Assembly (NCBI GenBank): GCA_021800255.1
Contig: JAJYZC010000001.1
Span: 62,001 to 126,000, forward strand
DNA from: Acidobacteriota bacterium
GTDB lineage: Bacteria; Acidobacteriota; Terriglobia; Terriglobales; Acidobacteriaceae
Direction of reading: 5' to 3'
Length of the DNA stretch: 64,000 nucleotides
Shown one piece after another: positions 35,828 to 44,707 of this stretch. A program made the translations under genes and the position numbers. The notes under the pieces are model-generated. The model was given only the letters and a program-made list of their open reading frames with translations, was not told where the DNA came from and did no database searches. Each line of letters opens with the position of its first letter. Position 1 is the first letter of the stretch.

Positions 35828-37123
35828 TTACTGCAACAGCTTCAGCACCTCCTGCTGCACGCTGTTGGCCTGCGCCAAGGCCGAGATGCCGGTCTGGGTC
35901 AGGATCTCGTACTTGCTCATGTTGGAGGTTGCGGAGGCGTAGTCGGTGGCCTGCACCGCGTTCTGGGCCGACTGCACGTTCTCCTGCTGCGTGCTCATCA
36001 CGTTGCTGACCGAGTTGAGCGTGTTGATCTGGGCGCCGATGTAGCCGTCCTGGGCGGCCACATCGCTGATGGCTGTGCTCAGCGCCGTCAGCGCCGCCTG
36101 CGCGTCGGCTTGTGAGGTCAGGTTAGTTGAGCTCAGATTCTGGCCGCCGCTGTCGGTGTAGCTGATCGTCGCCACGCCGCCGCTCGCGTCGTTGGCCAGG
36201 GTGGCCGGCGCGGTGCTTGTCTGGCCGCTGCTGGTGTCGTAGATCGCGGTCGTTCCCTGAGCGATCTCCTGGTCTTGATTGGCTTGCGTCGGAGCGGTTC
36301 CGCTCTCGATGTGCCCGCCGACGATCTCGATGCCGGTCTGGCTACCGGCAGCCGAATCCCCAGCCGCGGTTCCCGTGGTGAAGGTGGCTGTCAGGCCTAG
36401 ACCCGATCCGTTGATGGCGGAGATCAGTCCGTTCACGGTGTCCGTTGCCGGCGTAATCGTCGTTGTGCCCGGGTTACCCGAAGCATCGACGTAGCTGATG
36501 GTGAAGGTGCCGCCCGCGTCGAGCGAGTCGGTCGACTGAGCGTTCACGGTGGCTGTGGAGAGATCGACAAACTCGTTCTGGCCGGCGCTATAGTTCATCG
36601 CGCCCGCCGTGTCGCCCACGCTAGAGGAGGACAACGAGCGGATATTGAGGTCGTCGATCGACGAGCCGGTGCTGGAGGCGTCGCCGACAAAGATATTGGT
36701 GTTGGAGTCGAAAACAGCTTGGTCGTTATAGGTGGTCGTGGCGCCGATGTTGTTGATTTCTGACAGGATCGACTGGTACTCCTGGTTGGCGGCTGCGTCC
36801 TGCGTGGAGTTGAGCGTGCCGTTGGAGGCCTCGGTAGCCAGCGTAACCGCGCGGTTGAGCAGGCTGGTGACCTGCGACAGTGCGCCATCGGCCACTTGCA
36901 ACAGGCCCACGCCTTCGGTGGCGTTGGTCTCCGACTGGGTCAGCGCCGTCTGGTTGGCTTCCAAGCCGTCGACCAGCGACAGGCCGGCGGCGTCGTCGGC
37001 CCCGGAGTTGATCCGCGAGCCGGTGGACAACTGCTCGAGAACCGTGCTCAGGCTGTTGTTGCTATTGTTGAGTGCGTTCTCCGCATACACCGCGGAGAGG
37101 TTGTTCAAGACACCCAGGGACAT
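35828..37123 (-). CDS. fliC: Flagellin
   Basis: A 431-residue filament subunit. ATG 37123 follows AAGGAGAA at ideal spacing. The D0/D1 N-terminus has LEQLSTGSRINSGADDAAG, and the C-terminus ends LTQTGISALAQANSVQQEVL, both conserved in flagellins. The middle (about 180-350) is a variable exposed region with a Flagellin_IN-like module. The frame stays open upstream to 37693, but this start is clear. First gene of fliC-fliD-fliS; 302 bases separate it from fliD, and that gap carries a sigma-28-like -10. Confidence 0.95.
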   Translation of the reverse strand: MSLGVLNNLSAVYAENALNNSNNSLSTVLEQLSTGSRINSGADDAAGLSLVDGLEANQTALTQSETNATEGVGLLQVADGALSQVTSLLNRAVTLATEASNGTLNSTQDAAANQEYQSILSEINNIGATTTYNDQAVFDSNTNIFVGDASSTGSSIDDLNIRSLSSSSVGDTAGAMNYSAGQNEFVDLSTATVNAQSTDSLDAGGTFTISYVDASGNPGTTTITPATDTVNGLISAINGSGLGLTATFTTGTAAGDSAAGSQTGIEIVGGHIESGTAPTQANQDQEIAQGTTAIYDTSSGQTSTAPATLANDASGGVATISYTDSGGQNLSSTNLTSQADAQAALTALSTAISDVAAQDGYIGAQINTLNSVSNVMSTQQENVQSAQNAVQATDYASATSNMSKYEILTQTGISALAQANSVQQEVLKLLQ

Positions 37124-37233
37124 GGGGTTCTCCTTGTTGGATGCGGTGATTTGCGGTCCCTGGTCCGGATGCGCTCCCCTATGGATGACCCTGGGGTGCT
37201 GCTCTCGGCGCGGAACCGACGCATCTGGCCCCT

Positions 37234-37260
37234 TCTTCGGCGCGAGCCTTTCGGACTTTA
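37234..37260 (-). promoter_or_regulatory. Possible FliA (sigma-28) promoter of fliC
   Basis: On the minus strand: TAAAGTCC, exactly 11 bases, then GCCGAAGA; six of eight matches to each half of TAAAGTTT-N11-GCCGATAA. It lies about 110 bases before fliC. Confidence 0.5.
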
Positions 37261-37317
37261 TCCCCCCGTCTTTTGTGTCCCGCGGCGGACACTTTCGCCG
37301 GCTTGGTTCTAATTTTT

Positions 37318-37343
37318 TAACCTTTCCTCCGGCCTGCCGATAA
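37318..37343 (+). promoter_or_regulatory. Possible FliA (sigma-28) promoter of flbD-motAB
   Basis: TAACCTTT (37318-37325), ten bases, then a perfect GCCGATAA (37336-37343). Spacing is one base short of the consensus. The flbD start is 23 bases downstream, with AAAGGAG between. Confidence 0.5.
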
Positions 37344-37366
37344 CCTCTGCAAAGGAGTTCTTGGCG

Positions 37367-37675
37367 ATGATCGAACTGACCCGCCTCAACGGGACTGCCA
37401 TCGTGTTGAATAGCGATCTGATCAAGACCGCCGAAGCCTCGCCGGACACGATGCTGACGTTGATCAACGGAGAAAAGCTGATTGTGCGCGAGGAAACCGC
37501 GGAGGTCGTCGAGCGAGTGCTCGCCTACCGCGCGCGCCTGCTGGCGGGCGTAGCCAAGCGCCTGCCCAATCTGGCCGGCCTGGAGCGCGTTGCCGCTCTG
37601 GCCAGCCTCGACTTGGCAGGGCAACCGGGAGCGCCTGCGGCGCCGCTCCAATCGAGCCCCGGCCACGCGCATTGA
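37367..37675 (+). CDS. flbD: FlbD-family flagellar protein
   Basis: A 102-residue protein, starting at ATG 37367 behind AAAGGAG nine bases away. The conserved FlbD core is MIELTRLNGTAIVLNSDLIK followed by DTMLTLINGEKLIVREETAE. The usual protein is ~65-80 residues; a basic, Ala-rich tail of ~30 residues is added here. FlbD proteins are found beside motAB or flgE in many bacteria; the molecular role is not settled, and this is not the NtrC-type FlbD of Caulobacter. It heads the operon flbD-motA-motB, 54 bases before motA. Confidence 0.85.
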   Translation: MIELTRLNGTAIVLNSDLIKTAEASPDTMLTLINGEKLIVREETAEVVERVLAYRARLLAGVAKRLPNLAGLERVAALASLDLAGQPGAPAAPLQSSPGHAH

Positions 37676-37729
37676 AAACCGGCCAATCGGCATCCACCAC
37701 CTGCCCGGCTGAAGATCGAGGAGCGGCTC

Positions 37730-38503
37730 ATGGATAAAGCAAGCATCGGCGGCGTATTTCTAGCCCTCACCGGCATTATCGCCGGGCTTCTGATCGAGGG
37801 TGGAAACCTGGGCCAGGTTCTGCAGCCCACGGCCGCTCTGATCGTCTTCGGGGGCACGCTGGGCGCGGTGCTCTTGCAGTTCCCTCTTACTACGGTCATC
37901 GCCGCCTTTCGCAGCCTGATCCATATCTTCGCTGCGCCGCAGAAGCACGATGCAGGACTCATCCAGTTGCTGGTCGCCTTCGCCAACAAGGCCCGCCGTC
38001 AAGGTGTGGTCGCCCTCGACGCCGACCTCGAAGGCATTCGGGACCCCTTCCTCAAACAGACCGTCATGTTGGCCGTCGATGGCACCGAGCCGGCCGAATT
38101 GCGCAAAATGATGCGCGTCAGCCTCGACTCGATCACCGAAGAGGAAGAACGCCTGCCCGCCGTCTTCGAGTCCGCCGGCGGCTTCTCGCCAACCATCGGC
38201 ATCCTCGGCGCCGTCCTCGGCCTGATTCAGGTGATGCAGCACCTCGACAACATTCACGCGGTGGGCCGGGGCATCGCCGTGGCCTTCGTAGCCACCATCT
38301 ACGGAGTAGGTCTCGCCAATCTCTTCTTTCTGCCCCTGGCCGGCAAGATGCACCTGCGCATCCGCGATGGACACCGCCGCCGCGAGATGATGCTCGAAGG
38401 GGTCATCTCCATCCTTGAGGGCATGAACCCGCGTATGCTCGAAATCAAGCTCAGCGGCTTCCTCGACGACCTCAACCGCGAAAAGAAAGAGCGCGCCGCA
38501 TGA
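37730..38503 (+). CDS. motA: Flagellar motor stator protein MotA
   Basis: A 257-residue stator subunit with four membrane helices, forming the ion channel of the flagellar motor with MotB. It begins MDKASIGGVFLALTGIIAGL and has the cytoplasmic loop with LRKMMRVSLDSITEEEERLP containing charged residues that contact FliG. The second helix pair is ESAGGFSPTIGILGAVLGLI and IAVAFVATIYGVGLANLFFL. Length is typical of the MotA/PomA/MotP group. It overlaps motB by four bases. Confidence 0.93.
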   Translation: MDKASIGGVFLALTGIIAGLLIEGGNLGQVLQPTAALIVFGGTLGAVLLQFPLTTVIAAFRSLIHIFAAPQKHDAGLIQLLVAFANKARRQGVVALDADLEGIRDPFLKQTVMLAVDGTEPAELRKMMRVSLDSITEEEERLPAVFESAGGFSPTIGILGAVLGLIQVMQHLDNIHAVGRGIAVAFVATIYGVGLANLFFLPLAGKMHLRIRDGHRRREMMLEGVISILEGMNPRMLEIKLSGFLDDLNREKKERAA

Positions 38504-39318
38504 ACCCCCATTCCAACAAGGGCCGCATCGGCCACGACCGCTGGCTGGTCTCCTATGCCGATTTCATCACCCTGATGTTCGCCTTCTTCGTCGTCCTTTA
38601 CGCCTTCGCCAATGCCAAGCAAAAACAGCAGATCGCGGTTGCAGCCTCCATCCAGTCCGCCTTCCGCTCCATGGGCATCTTTCCCGGGGCCGCAAGCAAA
38701 GCCTCCAAGTTATCCGGCGGGCCCGGCGCCGGCGAGGCCGACATGCCCATGAGCACCGTGATGGAGGAGGATCTGCTGTCTCCCGCTCAGGTTAAGAACG
38801 ACCTCAACCGCATCGGCAGCGAACTCACACAAACCCTCGCCCAACAGGTCGCCAACCGCACCGTCTCCATCCATATGGGTCAGGACGGGCTGGTCATCAG
38901 CCTGCGCGAGGCCGGTTTCTTCGATTCCGGCTCGGCTACCCCCAAGCCCCAGTCCCTGCCCACTCTCCGTCAGATCGCCGCCACGCTCGGCCACACGCCC
39001 TATGACGTTCGCATTGAGGGCTTCACTGACAACGTACCCATCCACAACGCCCAATTCGACTCCAACTGGGAGCTTTCCACCGCCCGCGCCACGGGAATCC
39101 TCCGCCTCTTCCTGGAACTGAAAGCCATCCCTCCCGACCGCCTTTCGGCCGCCGGATACGCGCAATATCATCCTGTGGCCAGCAACGCGACCGCCGAGGG
39201 CCGCGCCCAGAATCGCCGCGTCGATCTCGTCGTACTGCCCCGCACCAGAATCAACTTCGCCGCTTCGAATTCCCTGCCGCCCAGCGGTTCCTGGCGCAAG
39301 ATTACCGACGAGCACTAG
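38500..39318 (+). CDS. motB: Flagellar motor stator protein MotB
   Basis: A 272-residue stator subunit. The single N-terminal helix carries the essential ion-binding Asp21 in [19 protein letters not shown] plug/linker region follows, then the peptidoglycan-binding OmpA-type domain (about 150-250), with [20 protein letters not shown] and RRVDLVVLP. Whether H+ or Na+ drives it cannot be decided from sequence alone. It overlaps motA (ATGA). The stop TAG lies in the palindrome CTAG shared with the converging yjbQ stop. Confidence 0.93.
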
Positions 39319-40105: not shown

Positions 40106-41425
40106 ATGCGAAAAATCCTGCGCGTTTTGGCGGCAGCATATTTTTTAATCGCCGTGAATTGGGCCTATGCCGTACCGAGCTTTGCCCGTCAGACGGATCT
40201 GTCCTGCAATGTCTGCCACAGCAATCCTCCGGAACTGACCGCTTTTGGCCGTAACTTCAAGCTGCACGGATATCTGCTGGCAAAGACCGGCAAAAACGAG
40301 AAGGTTGGGACTAGTAAGGCGCTCCGTCTTTCCATGAAGATTCCTCTCGCGGTCATGATGCTGCTTTCCGACACCGCATACCAGGCGAACCAGCCCGCGA
40401 CCCAGAACAACTCCGCGGGCTTTCCACAGCAGTTGAGCATCTTTCTAGCCGGCGCGTTCGCATCCCACTTCGGCGGGCTGGCCCAGGTTACTTACTCGCA
40501 CGCCGAAGACCACTTCGGCATGGACAATACCGACCTGCGTTACGCCAACCAGAGCAAGCTGCTGCACAAGACCCTGGACTACGGGATCACCATCAATAAC
40601 AACCCCACCGTCGAAGATATCTGGAACAGCACCCCGGCATGGGGCTTTCCCTGGATCTCCACCGCTTCCAGCGTAAGTCCGCTCGCCTCTCCCATCATCA
40701 ACGGCACCCTCGGCCAGGATGTGGCGGGGCTGGGCGGTTATGGGATGTGGAACAACCATCTCTACGGCGACATTACCCTCTACCGCTCCGAACATGCCGG
40801 CGCGGCGACACCCATAACGGGAGCGGGAGAGCAATATAACATCAGCGGCGCCGCTCCTTATTGGCGGGCAGCATGGCAACAAACCTGGAGCGATAACTAT
40901 CTCGAGGTCGGAACTTATGGCATGGATGTTAACTCATTCCCCAATGCGATCTCCGGGCCCGAAGACCGCTACGTGGACACCGCCTTCGATTTTCAATACG
41001 AACACCCCTTCGGCCCCAACCTTCTCGACGCTCATGGAACGTACATCCATGAGAAATCGGATTTGGGCGCAACGTATGCGGCCGCCGGAGCAAGCACGGC
41101 CTTGAATCATCTGAATACCTTCAAGCTGGATAGCACATATCATTGGCGAAACCGATACAGCGCGACCGGCGCGCTGTTTTCCACCACCGGCAATCGCGAT
41201 CCCCTGCTTTACGCGCCGGCTCCGCTGACCGGCAGCGAAAATGGCGATCCCGATACGAGCGGATATATTGCGCAGCTCGCCTTCTGGCCGGTGCAAAACA
41301 TCGACATCGATTTCAACTACTCAGGCTACTTCAAATTTAACGGCGCCAGCACCAATTACGACGGCGCCCACCGGAATGCTTCTGACAACAACACCACCTA
41401 TATGGCTCTGTGGTTGAACTTCTAG
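40106..41425 (+). CDS. Cyc2-like fused monohaem cytochrome c and outer membrane porin
   Basis: A 439-residue exported protein. A signal peptide (about 1-22, ending NWAYA) precedes VPSFARQT, then the haem motif C34-N-V-C37-H38 and PELTAFGRNFKLHGY. The FARQT-CxxCH-PxLxxFGRxFKxxGY block is the hallmark of Cyc2, the outer-membrane fused cytochrome-porin that oxidises Fe(II) in Acidithiobacillus and neutrophilic iron oxidisers. The remaining ~370 residues look like a beta-barrel with alternating strands and a terminal aromatic (YMALWLNF). Length falls in the short Cyc2 range. It is followed by Rieske and b-type genes. The substrate is not proven; Cyc2-like proteins without iron-oxidising function may exist. 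Confidence 0.72.
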   Translation: MRKILRVLAAAYFLIAVNWAYAVPSFARQTDLSCNVCHSNPPELTAFGRNFKLHGYLLAKTGKNEKVGTSKALRLSMKIPLAVMMLLSDTAYQANQPATQNNSAGFPQQLSIFLAGAFASHFGGLAQVTYSHAEDHFGMDNTDLRYANQSKLLHKTLDYGITINNNPTVEDIWNSTPAWGFPWISTASSVSPLASPIINGTLGQDVAGLGGYGMWNNHLYGDITLYRSEHAGAATPITGAGEQYNISGAAPYWRAAWQQTWSDNYLEVGTYGMDVNSFPNAISGPEDRYVDTAFDFQYEHPFGPNLLDAHGTYIHEKSDLGATYAAAGASTALNHLNTFKLDSTYHWRNRYSATGALFSTTGNRDPLLYAPAPLTGSENGDPDTSGYIAQLAFWPVQNIDIDFNYSGYFKFNGASTNYDGAHRNASDNNTTYMALWLNF

Positions 41426-41433
41426 GAGACAGC

Positions 41434-41991
41434 GTGGAACAGGAACTAAGTAAGGACAATCTAGCCGGAAGAAAAGATGTCATTATCATCAACCGGCGCT
41501 CCTTCTTCGGGGCATTGCTGGCCATTGGCTCGGCAGGAATGGGCGCCATTCTTGCCGTTCCGGTGCTGCGGTACGTTCTCTATCCGATCTATGCCAAAGC
41601 CTCGGGAATCGCGTGGGCTGACGTGGGTGATCTCAGCGAGTTTGCTGAAATCTCCGCTCCTGTCCGCAAGACCATCACCTTCGCCCAGCTCGACGGCTGG
41701 CGTCAGGTGGAGTCTGCGCAATCGGTCTACGTGAATCGCACCAGCGGGGGAGAATTCGAGGTCCTATCCGCCATCTGCCCCCACCTGGGATGCAGCGTCT
41801 CCTGGCAGAAGAATGCAGACGATTTTCTCTGTCCCTGCCACGGGAGCATTTTTTCGCCGGATGGGAAGCTCGTGAAGGGCCCGGCGCCGCGGGGGATGGA
41901 TCCCCTTCCCCACCGCGTGAAGAACGGCAAACTGCAGGTTCGTTTTGAATTTTTCCGGGAAGACGTCCCCAATAGAGAAGTAGTCAGTTAA
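41434..41991 (+). CDS. Rieske iron-sulphur protein of a bc complex
   Basis: A 185-residue protein that accepts electrons from quinol at the Qo site. GTG 41434 has AGGAG five bases upstream and lies eight bases after the previous stop. NRRSFFG (residues 20-26) is a twin-arginine signal followed by a membrane helix (about 28-50), normal for Rieske proteins that fold in the cytoplasm. The cluster ligands are C115-P-H117-L-G-C120 and C133-P-C135-H136, both motifs complete. It is directly followed by the cytochrome b fusion gene. Confidence 0.93.
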   Translation: MEQELSKDNLAGRKDVIIINRRSFFGALLAIGSAGMGAILAVPVLRYVLYPIYAKASGIAWADVGDLSEFAEISAPVRKTITFAQLDGWRQVESAQSVYVNRTSGGEFEVLSAICPHLGCSVSWQKNADDFLCPCHGSIFSPDGKLVKGPAPRGMDPLPHRVKNGKLQVRFEFFREDVPNREVVS

Positions 41992-42010
41992 CCGGGATGA
42001 GGAGCAAACT

Positions 42011-44707
42011 GTGGACGAAAAGGAAAAATTAGCTTCCGCCACATCCTCCGGCGAGAGCCTTTCGAAACGCCTATACCGTTGGCTGGACAGGCGCGCCGAA
42101 GTGAATAAGCTGATGGAGGAATCGCTCGACGAGCCGATTCCGGGCGGAGCGCGCTTCGCTTACGTTTTTGGCTCTGGGCTGCTCTTCATCTTTATCTCGC
42201 AGATCATTACCGGCATCTGCCTGGCTATTTATTACGTGCCCTCGGCTGAGACCGCCCATACCAGCGTAGCCTACATCACCAAGAAGGTCGCCGCGGGCGA
42301 CTTCCTGCGCAGCCTCCACTACTATGGATCGAGCGCGATGATCATCGTGCTCCTGCTGCATTTTCTGCAAACCTTTCTCTATGGCTCCTTCAAGGGAAGA
42401 CGCGAACTGCTCTGGATGTCCGGGGCCACACTCTCGTTGCTGGTGCTGGGCATGGGTTTCACCGGCTACCTGCTGCCCTGGGATCAGAGAGCCTATTTCG
42501 CTACCGCGGTGGGCACCAATATCGTCGGCGAAGTGCCGCTCATCGGCGGTTGGCTCACAAAGCTGATGCGCGGCGGCGACACCATCGGCACTCTTACACT
42601 GTCGCGCTTTTACGTCGCTCATGTCTTTCTCATTCCCGCCTGCATCTTCGCCTTCATCAGCATTCACATTTACCTTTTTCGCAAAGCCGGCGCGGCCGGC
42701 CCAATGCACGAAAATCCAGTTCATCCCACGCTGCCGCCGGAGGGGTTCTACCCGCGCCAGGTCCTCATGGATATGGCGTTTGCCCTGTTACTGATGGTGG
42801 GTCTGGGTTTTCTGGCCTACTTCCACCCCATCGGTCTCGGTCCCATCGCCAACCCCGCCAACACCCACTATCTGCCGCGGCCCGAGTGGTATTACCTGCC
42901 TTTCTTTGAATGGCTCAAGCTCTGGGAGGGGCCGAAAGCCGTCATCGCGGTCGTGGTTACGCCCGCCCTGCTGGCAGCGTTGTTCTTCCTTCTGCCGTTC
43001 CTCGACCGCAGCCTGGAGCGCAGGCCGTGGCGCAGGCCCATTCCCGTGCTGGCGGTGGGCATCGTCCTCGTGGGCATCTTCTTCCTGGGCATCAGGAGCC
43101 GGATCGACGACGAGGACGACCCCACCGTAGCCGCTCAACTGGCGCGTCAAGCAGAGCAGGAAAGGGCCTATACGAAAGCGCCCTTCCGTCCCTATATCGA
43201 GTCACCGGGCGCAACGGGTCCGCTGGCGCTTCCCACCGGCCCTGTGAATCCGCTGGTGTCGCAGGGCAGAGGGGTCTTTCAGTCTGAGGGATGCTCCGGC
43301 TGCCACGGCGACACCGGCATGGGAACTATGGTTGCGCCCAGCCTCGAAGGCATCACCACCAAGTTCTCGGGGCCGCAGTTGACCGCACTGCTGCACAACC
43401 CCAATGCCGCCATGAGAGCCGGTCACATGCCTTCCTTCGACATATCGAATAGCGACATGTCGGCCCTGCTCGCCTACCTGGGAGTGATCGGAACCGCCGC
43501 AGCCAACGTACAACCGACCTCCGGCGAAATTGCGCAGGCGCCTGTCGCCGCGTCACAGGCCGCGCCGGCGGCGGCCGGACTACCGCAAGCCGCCGCTCCG
43601 GCGCCCAAGCAACTCTCAGCGCAGGCAGCCGCAGGCAGCCAGATCTTCCAGCAGCACGCTTGCTCGGCTTGTCACGGGCCAGCCGGACAGGGTGCGGTGG
43701 CGCCTGCTCTTGCTCCGTTGATCGCTCATCTTTCTGGCCCGCAGCTAACACAGCTATTGCAGCATCCAAATGCCAAGATGAAGGCTGGCGGAATGCCGCC
43801 CTTCGCGGGAACGGCCGGCCAGCTTGACTCCCTGATTGCTTTTTTGCGCACACTCAAGCCGCCGGCGCAGCAGGCCCAACAGCAGCCGCAGCCGCAGCAG
43901 TCGGCGGCCATGGCGTTCGCTTCGGAAAATGGCGGCGTTCCTTATCCGGAGGAGGGTTCTGCGCCTGCTCCTTCGGCGGTCACAAATGGGGTTCGCTCCG
44001 CATCCCCAACTCTTCCCGGCGGGGCTGTCTCTTCATCTCGTGCGGTTGCTGCTGCTTCGCCCGCATCCGCTCCGAGTCCAGGCCGCGCGCTCTTTCTTTC
44101 CCAAGGATGCTCTGCCTGCCACGGACCCTCCGCGCAGGGCACGCGGTTCGCTCCCTCGCTGATCGGTATCAGTAAGAAATTCCCCGGCGACAAGCTGCCC
44201 TATCTGCTGCGCCACCCAACTCGCGCAATGCGCGGCGGGGGAATGCCGACAGTAGCTCTGAACGACCAGCAGCTAAAGCAATTGGTGGCCTATCTGTCCA
44301 CTCTAACCCCTGCCTCCGCCCGAGCGCCGGCTGCGCAGTCCAGTCCCGCTGTTGGCACGGCGAATATGCAACCCTCTGCGGCTCCGCCAGCCCCGTCCAA
44401 CACGGCTGCCCCGGCGCCCGCTCGGCCTGCCCCGCTGAGTCCGCTGGCCAAACGCGGTGAGCGCATCTTCGAGAGCATGAACTGCGAAACCTGCCACGGA
44501 GTAGGCGGGTTGACCGGGACCGTCGCCGCGCCGCCGCTGGCGGGCACGGCCTCGCTGCTCCCCGCCAATGTTCTTGAAAACCTGCTGCGGCACCATTCCA
44601 AACGCATGCAGGAGGGCGGCATGCCGCTCACCAACCTGAACCCGCAGGACATGAAATCGCTGATCGCCTATATTCGCTCCATGCCCTCGTCCTCCACGGC
44701 AAAATAA
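42011..44707 (+). CDS. Cytochrome b (b6-like) fused to four haem c domains
   Basis: An 898-residue quinol-oxidising subunit. The N-terminal ~365 residues are cytochrome b with eight helices. Haem b ligands are H103/H117 and H204/H219; the second pair is spaced H-X14-H, as in b6f-type rather than mitochondrial bc1. PEWY (291-294) marks the Qo site. After a short linker come four c-type domains with CxxCH at 428, 551, 700 and 825 (CSGCHG, CSACHG, CSACHG, CETCHG), separated by Pro/Ala/Gln-rich linkers. With the Rieske gene this makes a bc complex from two genes. Start is GTG 42011, GGAG six bases upstream. Confidence 0.9.
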   Translation: MDEKEKLASATSSGESLSKRLYRWLDRRAEVNKLMEESLDEPIPGGARFAYVFGSGLLFIFISQIITGICLAIYYVPSAETAHTSVAYITKKVAAGDFLRSLHYYGSSAMIIVLLLHFLQTFLYGSFKGRRELLWMSGATLSLLVLGMGFTGYLLPWDQRAYFATAVGTNIVGEVPLIGGWLTKLMRGGDTIGTLTLSRFYVAHVFLIPACIFAFISIHIYLFRKAGAAGPMHENPVHPTLPPEGFYPRQVLMDMAFALLLMVGLGFLAYFHPIGLGPIANPANTHYLPRPEWYYLPFFEWLKLWEGPKAVIAVVVTPALLAALFFLLPFLDRSLERRPWRRPIPVLAVGIVLVGIFFLGIRSRIDDEDDPTVAAQLARQAEQERAYTKAPFRPYIESPGATGPLALPTGPVNPLVSQGRGVFQSEGCSGCHGDTGMGTMVAPSLEGITTKFSGPQLTALLHNPNAAMRAGHMPSFDISNSDMSALLAYLGVIGTAAANVQPTSGEIAQAPVAASQAAPAAAGLPQAAAPAPKQLSAQAAAGSQIFQQHACSACHGPAGQGAVAPALAPLIAHLSGPQLTQLLQHPNAKMKAGGMPPFAGTAGQLDSLIAFLRTLKPPAQQAQQQPQPQQSAAMAFASENGGVPYPEEGSAPAPSAVTNGVRSASPTLPGGAVSSSRAVAAASPASAPSPGRALFLSQGCSACHGPSAQGTRFAPSLIGISKKFPGDKLPYLLRHPTRAMRGGGMPTVALNDQQLKQLVAYLSTLTPASARAPAAQSSPAVGTANMQPSAAPPAPSNTAAPAPARPAPLSPLAKRGERIFESMNCETCHGVGGLTGTVAAPPLAGTASLLPANVLENLLRHHSKRMQEGGMPLTNLNPQDMKSLIAYIRSMPSSSTAK

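Follow-up and report, generated by a model that had tools for sequence, protein, structure and literature searches.

The window explored here is a stretch of 64,000 nucleotides from an Acidobacteriota bacterium of the Acidobacteriaceae (assembly GCA_021800255.1, contig JAJYZC010000001.1, positions 62,001 to 126,000 of the forward strand), in which adjacent genes, hereafter the trio, encode a cytochrome-porin, a Rieske protein and a cytochrome b with four fused haem c domains. Numbered from the first letter of the window, the porin gene occupies positions 40106-41425 (439 amino acids), the Rieske gene 41434-41991 and the cytochrome b-c4 gene 42011-44707, all on the + strand, as are the other features located below. 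The second and third genes start with GTG, at 41434 and 42011, and given these starts the intergenic gaps are 8 bases (porin/Rieske) and 19 bases (Rieske/b). Shine-Dalgarno sequences could be read before both, namely AGGAGA at 41424-41429 for the Rieske gene, which shares bases with the porin stop codon, and AGGAG at 42000-42004 for the cytochrome b gene. An earlier note, made from the sequence alone, had described three genes packed with gaps of this size, and the coordinates, strand and gaps agree with it.

The porin had no match in Pfam, in NCBIfam or in a sequence search of the PDB, and since the latter came back empty, a structure model and a fold search were used instead. The AlphaFold model has exactly 16 strands (pLDDT 71.7, pTM 0.74; haem region with pLDDT <50), its nearest PDB folds are 16-strand porins, and the N-terminus of the protein is a hydrophobic, signal-like stretch that is helical in the model. 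Cyc2 proteins have been defined by an AXPXFAR[QK][TY] motif, a single CXXCH, a PXL four residues downstream and a length of at least 365 residues (PMC8406198). The haem region of the porin reads AVPSFARQT-DLS-CNVCH-SNP-PEL: AVPSFARQT, upstream of the CXXCH, corresponds to the first motif, C34NVCH38 (haem c attachment motif at 40205-40219) is the only CXXCH of the protein, P42-E-L44 provides the PXL, and the 439 residues exceed the minimal length. Among 34 relatives, C34, C37 and H38 are invariant, and the residues that define Cyc2 are invariant or almost so. By the published sequence criteria, gene 1 is therefore a Cyc2-family cytochrome-porin, and its first description as Cyc2-like holds on both the motifs and the 16-strand model.

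Gene 2 matches the Rieske family (Pfam PF00355, 3.8e-12), features the cluster motifs CPHLGC and CPCHGS together with a twin-arginine-like N-terminal anchor (NRRSFFG), and has b6f-type Rieske proteins as its closest PDB kin. Gene 3 combines Cytochrome_B (PF00033, 2e-47), Cytochrom_B_C (PF00032) and four Cytochrom_C stretches. Its cytochrome b part (residues 1-372, 42011-43126), also recognised by the NCBIfam cytochrome b6 model and by b6 structures in the PDB, consists of a b6-like N-terminal region and a subunit-IV-like C-terminal region, with the haem b ligand pairs H103/H117 and H204/H219 and the Qo motif PEWY (in PRPEWYYLP). The remainder of the chain displays CXXCH motifs at residues 428, 551, 700 and 825, within four class-I c domains with GxMP axial methionines: domain 1 at 43232-43495 (CSGCH 43292-43306, GxMP axial Met), domain 2 at 43604-43870 (CSACH 43661-43675) after an Ala/Pro-rich linker, domain 3 at 44051-44320 (CSACH 44108-44122) after an Ala/Pro/Ser/Gln-rich linker, and domain 4 from 44426 to the stop codon at 44707 (CETCH 44483-44497) after another Ala/Pro-rich linker. 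The four share 35-46% pairwise identity and thus probably originated by duplication. No separate cytochrome c1 or f subunit is encoded in the operon, where the four fused c domains are found instead; as b-c fused complexes likewise have no c1 or f, we assigned the Rieske/b complex to this kind rather than to bc1/b6f proper. The Pfam matches and the four CXXCH sites bear out the gene content first proposed for this part of the locus.

The conservation of the trio was examined at two scales. In a first survey of 149 relatives, restricted to b genes sharing at least 70% identity with the query, 16 were retrieved besides the window's own, plus one partial gene at a contig end, and a Cyc2 gene lies directly upstream of the b complex in 14 of the 16 (one inferred across a contig break), the two others being those of genomes G044 and G008. 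On the wider scale, a Cyc2 alignment run against 84,980 species genomes yielded 80 loci. Where porin identity is at least 58%, nearly all loci show Cyc2, Rieske and b in the same order and on the same strand, with exceptions at contig ends; the three genes adjoin one another in about 50 loci of Acidobacteriaceae, Acidipila rosea DSM 103428 (L087) included, with differing flanks. When 33 trio loci were compared, the three genes recurred in 30-32 of them and any other neighbour family in at most five, which indicates a unit kept together amid changing surroundings; no oxidase recurred near the trio in these 33 loci. Carriers in named records are Acidobacteriaceae, A. rosea being the nearest named isolate. 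Chance adjacency can be rejected, given that about 50 loci hold the trio while the flanks vary, and this outcome of the neighbourhood survey, contrary to the "never together" set in advance as a refutation, strengthens the view of the three genes as one unit. Other relatives of the porin stand alone or beside unrelated genes.

A survey of partners was seeded with the b domain, which removes the bias towards Cyc2, and a conduit was counted when a Cyc2, a decahaem MtrA with a porin, or a trihaem protein lay within 5 kb. The 28 close relatives with b at least 55% identical and a readable context comprise 19 with Cyc2, three with MtrA and six with neither; in the three MtrA cases the decahaem gene is followed by a porin or porin-like gene, in place of Cyc2. 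A second sample, an even selection of 396 genomes across the phylum, added seven further genes at b identity of at least 60%, all with a conduit (two Cyc2, four MtrA and one three-CXXCH protein), and a clear MtrB homologue was found in three of the four MtrA cases. No conduit was seen near ten b genes of 44-51% identity, two contexts being short. The resulting contrast, 29/35 at b identity of at least 55% versus 0/10 at 51% or less (Fisher p = 2.5e-6, relatedness ignored), is a guide and not a proof, the genomes being related. On the b tree, Cyc2 linkage changes six times and Mtr linkage five times. The possibility that Cyc2 is the constant partner of the Rieske/b-c complex was rejected, as the b-seeded surveys gave Mtr partners and six loci with none.

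Individual loci illustrate the range of partners. In G069 (L043, also L099) the genes run in a row as Cyc2, Rieske, b-c4, decahaem cytochrome (MtrA) and porin (MtrB). The decahaem protein belongs to the DmsE family (TIGR03508, above cut-off), and the porin model has about 26 strands, with MtrB (6r2q_B) as its best PDB match at a TM of 0.69 by target length, the other matches listed reaching at most 0.43 on that measure and none exceeding 0.48. Three further genomes, of different genera within this family (L208, L210 and L211), have MtrA and MtrB ahead of the Rieske and b-c1 genes, with a small monohaem c gene just before the Rieske gene in at least two of them, L208 and L210. The porin-like proteins adjoining MtrA in L162, L164 and L209 gave no identification by sequence. 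In L207 (2396-6992), a 690-residue protein with three CXXCH is encoded in one run alongside a small c protein, Rieske and b-c1, and possibly represents a third kind of outer-membrane partner. In L051 (3204-7440), a Cyc2-family gene precedes those for a pentahaem c protein and a subunit of molybdopterin type, an arrangement shared with alternative complex III. The earlier note had seen in the trio a resemblance to an outer-membrane-to-quinone route, and the Mtr/porin pairing of the same complex in relatives gives an independent sign of extracellular electron transfer.

The number of c domains differs between complexes. Complexes adjacent to Cyc2 mostly have four (3-5 in complete genes), although five loci have a single one despite an adjacent or nearby Cyc2 (L047, L048, L052, L122 and L133), and Mtr-type complexes without Cyc2 have one. 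In L047, L048 and L122, a MarR-family regulator (Pfam-tested in L048 only) sits between the b-c1 and Cyc2 genes. A tree of the c domains resolves c1, c2, c3 and c4 lineages with moderate support, and the two members of the c4 clade that have no Cyc2 retain c1 and c2 (G044) or c1 only (G008), a pattern consistent with a loss of the outer domains after the loss of Cyc2. Four domains are unlikely to be the ancestral state, because outgroup members have one or two and both reduced members nest inside the c4 clade.

Homologous cytochrome-porins also occur in Proteobacteria, namely Acidiphilium cryptum JF-5, Acidithiobacillus ferrooxidans YQ-N3, Caballeronia, Paraburkholderia and Methylocystis, with 30-40% identity over at least 92% of the length. 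Beside them lie genes for one to three small c cytochromes encoded separately, several of these dihaem, and no bc genes were seen, the plasmid gene tables being incomplete. The proposal that the fused c domains replace separate carriers hence appears plausible, since the proteobacterial porins come with separate c cytochromes and the operon has none. The regions of A. cryptum JF-5 plasmid pACRY03 (L200) and of a plasmid of At. ferrooxidans YQ-N3 (L204) are near-identical and hold a porin homologue and a c cytochrome next to a transposase, which suggests transfer among acidophiles.

The genome that carries the trio encodes several other electron-transfer clusters. A second Cyc2-family gene, 51% identical to the first, lies on contig C90 (L061, 2686-11042), preceded by genes for an NAD(P)-linked flavoprotein, a Rieske protein, a b6, a subunit IV, an octahaem c and a monohaem c. 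This cluster, with similar ones in L067, L069 and L070, resembles anammox-type Rieske/b complexes that include an NAD(P) subunit; Rieske/b complexes of anammox bacteria are thought to produce NAD(P)H (PMC12954380). On contig C52 (L194, 6294-13684), genes for a DmsE-family decahaem cytochrome and an MtrB-like porin, with a pentahaem NrfH-like protein nearby, constitute by their sequence a separate Mtr-type route. An alternative complex III with an oxidase and a Rieske/b-c pair adjoining an aa3 oxidase are present as well, and no RuBisCO large subunit was found in the genome. The trio is therefore not the only complex III, the alternative complex III and the aa3-type oxidases serving ordinary respiration; without a RuBisCO large subunit, autotrophic reverse flow is not suggested, and the trio is best viewed as an extra, specialised branch.

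On this evidence we consider it likely that the trio is a dedicated electron conduit connecting the quinone pool with the cell surface, most likely with quinol as the donor and an external acceptor, such as Fe(III), as the destination. The Rieske protein and cytochrome b would form a Q-cycle type quinol oxidoreductase of the inner membrane, in which quinol would be oxidised and the Rieske cluster would pass an electron to the c domains. These, on flexible linkers at the periplasmic C-terminus of b, would stand in for cytochrome c1/f and soluble carriers, carry the electron across the periplasm and hand it, on contact, to the single haem of the Cyc2-type porin, which would move it through the outer membrane to an acceptor, for instance dissolved Fe(III) at low pH. 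The Q cycle would conserve energy during this outward flow. A comparable path, from quinol through bc1 and c cytochromes to Cyc2 and Fe(III), was proposed for At. ferrooxidans, with separate carriers, in a review of acidophile models (PMC8790237). We give an even chance to the broader reading that a dedicated Acidobacteriota clade of Rieske/cytochrome b complexes supplies the inner-membrane side of extracellular electron transfer, to which exchangeable outer-membrane parts are coupled (Cyc2, a trihaem protein, or MtrA together with a porin), the Cyc2 version bringing four tethered c domains, no soluble carrier and Q-cycle energy conservation for extracellular respiration.

Several observations weigh against this interpretation: in six cases a close relative of the complex stands without a conduit gene in its vicinity, Cyc2 members outside validated clusters have an uncertain function (PMC8406198), and the operon is sporadic, being found in 13 of the roughly 80 congeneric genomes that were searched, a set that includes incomplete ones. 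Outward flow is argued from physiology, and the c domains could feed an oxidase instead.

The alternative that survives best is a conduit working inward, with Cyc2 oxidising external Fe(II) or another donor and the c domains either supplying an oxidase or sending the electrons back through Rieske/b to quinone at the expense of the proton gradient, a route like the one in Acidithiobacillus. In several iron oxidisers, tests have identified Cyc2 as an Fe(II) oxidase (PMC8406198), aa3-type oxidases are encoded in the genome, and the relatives are mostly metagenome genomes, plus Acidipila. Against it, the missing RuBisCO large subunit leaves small need for reverse flow, A. rosea is described as a chemoorganotroph, and the same Rieske/b-c clade pairs with Mtr modules too; we regard this alternative as possible but rather unlikely. 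If the trio is taken to be a conduit, our judgement leans slightly to outward flow, leaves inward flow a lesser though appreciable chance, and grants little to both directions or another use.

Less credible is an ordinary aerobic complex III whose c domains supply a cytochrome oxidase, the cytochrome-porin being no more than a co-regulated outer-membrane pore. Oxidase-feeding b-c fusions are common, and one Rieske/b-c lies beside an aa3 oxidase in this very genome; however, the genome already holds a further bc-oxidase cluster besides an alternative complex III and its oxidase, no oxidase recurs near the trio across the 33 loci, and linkage to outer-membrane conduits arose repeatedly and independently, so that we deem it improbable. 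Slightly less probable still is a Cyc2 look-alike serving uptake, sensing or detoxification (of metal ions, for example) with a haem for local redox chemistry, a view that the uncertain function across the Cyc2 tree outside tested clades (PMC8406198) and the isolated or unrelated settings of other porin relatives would allow, but that fits poorly with the way the trio strictly couples the porin to a quinol oxidoreductase and with the swaps for MtrA/porin modules.

Compared with known systems, the porin resembles Cyc2 of iron oxidisers (Mariprofundus, Acidithiobacillus) in AXPXFAR[QK][TY], the single CXXCH, PXL, length and 16-strand barrel; it is encoded with a Rieske/b complex where theirs have soluble c cytochromes, a cupredoxin and an oxidase, and its substrate is putative. 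In At. ferrooxidans, the rus and pet operons (Cyc2-Cyc1-Rus-Cox and CycA-SdrA-PetABC) tie Cyc2 functionally to bc1 via c cytochromes, but as two operons with soluble carriers instead of one operon with fused carriers. With bc1/b6f and the Firmicutes-type b-c fused complexes the trio shares a Rieske protein, a b6-type b with subunit IV, the PEWY motif and a c haem on the b chain; it departs from them by its four tandem tethered c domains (one in more distant kin, and as many as five) and its tight linkage to Cyc2. MtrAB/MtoAB are likewise quinone-fed outer-membrane conduits, and adjoin the same Rieske/b-c complex in relatives, but they place a decahaem protein in a 26-strand barrel and are usually fed by CymA/NapC-type proteins rather than Rieske/b; a decahaem MtrA and a 26-strand MtrB are absent from the operon of the window and present beside the same complex in relatives.

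A related grouping is the ext cluster of Geobacter sulfurreducens (ExtI porin-like, ExtO Rieske, ExtP cytochrome b, ExtM/N/S multihaem c; PMC5877670), which nonetheless features a short separate b, large multihaem c proteins and a separate porin-like protein in about eleven genes, against three genes with fusions here. The trio, which has no ExtI-type porin or ExtKL/M/N/S multihaem c, does not belong to it: only the ExtP and ExtS models score, both below cut-off (193.8 of 290 bits for the b part and 52.3 of 100 for the c part), and the porin has no NCBIfam match. The earlier claim that no described system has this exact arrangement stands only in part, since a literature search, with subscription papers mostly outside it, returned no report of Cyc2 with Rieske/b-c4 or of a Rieske/b complex swapping Cyc2 for Mtr, while the ext cluster, with Rieske, b, multihaem c and ExtI, is a partial precedent. 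The parts of the trio are known families; what is new here is the Cyc2/Mtr partner pattern of the close b clade.

None of the genes flanking the trio in the window encodes an electron carrier. On the 5' side lies a divergent UPF0047 gene, preceded by motA/motB, which together with a flagellin-like open reading frame occupy 35828-39318 and are unrelated in function; on the 3' side lies an HhH-GPD gene. Scans for sigma-70 promoters and terminators gave no more than shuffled sequences, and a common FNR-type box 5' of the trio was rejected, its scan being barely above shuffles.

Acidobacteria are among the commonest bacteria of soils and mine waters, and a 2018 survey reported mtrA/mtrB candidates in several of their genomes, with no complete mtr/omc operon like those of Shewanella or Geobacter (PMC5900883). 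A compact and conserved quinone-to-surface unit, present in the named isolate A. rosea, thus provides a direct candidate for this group, and its gene content suggests that the bacterium studied here can probably exchange electrons with extracellular iron or other external matter. If this is true, a proton-motive bc-type complex can be wired to differing outer-membrane conduits, and the direction of electron flow through Cyc2 would become testable in a chemoorganotroph.

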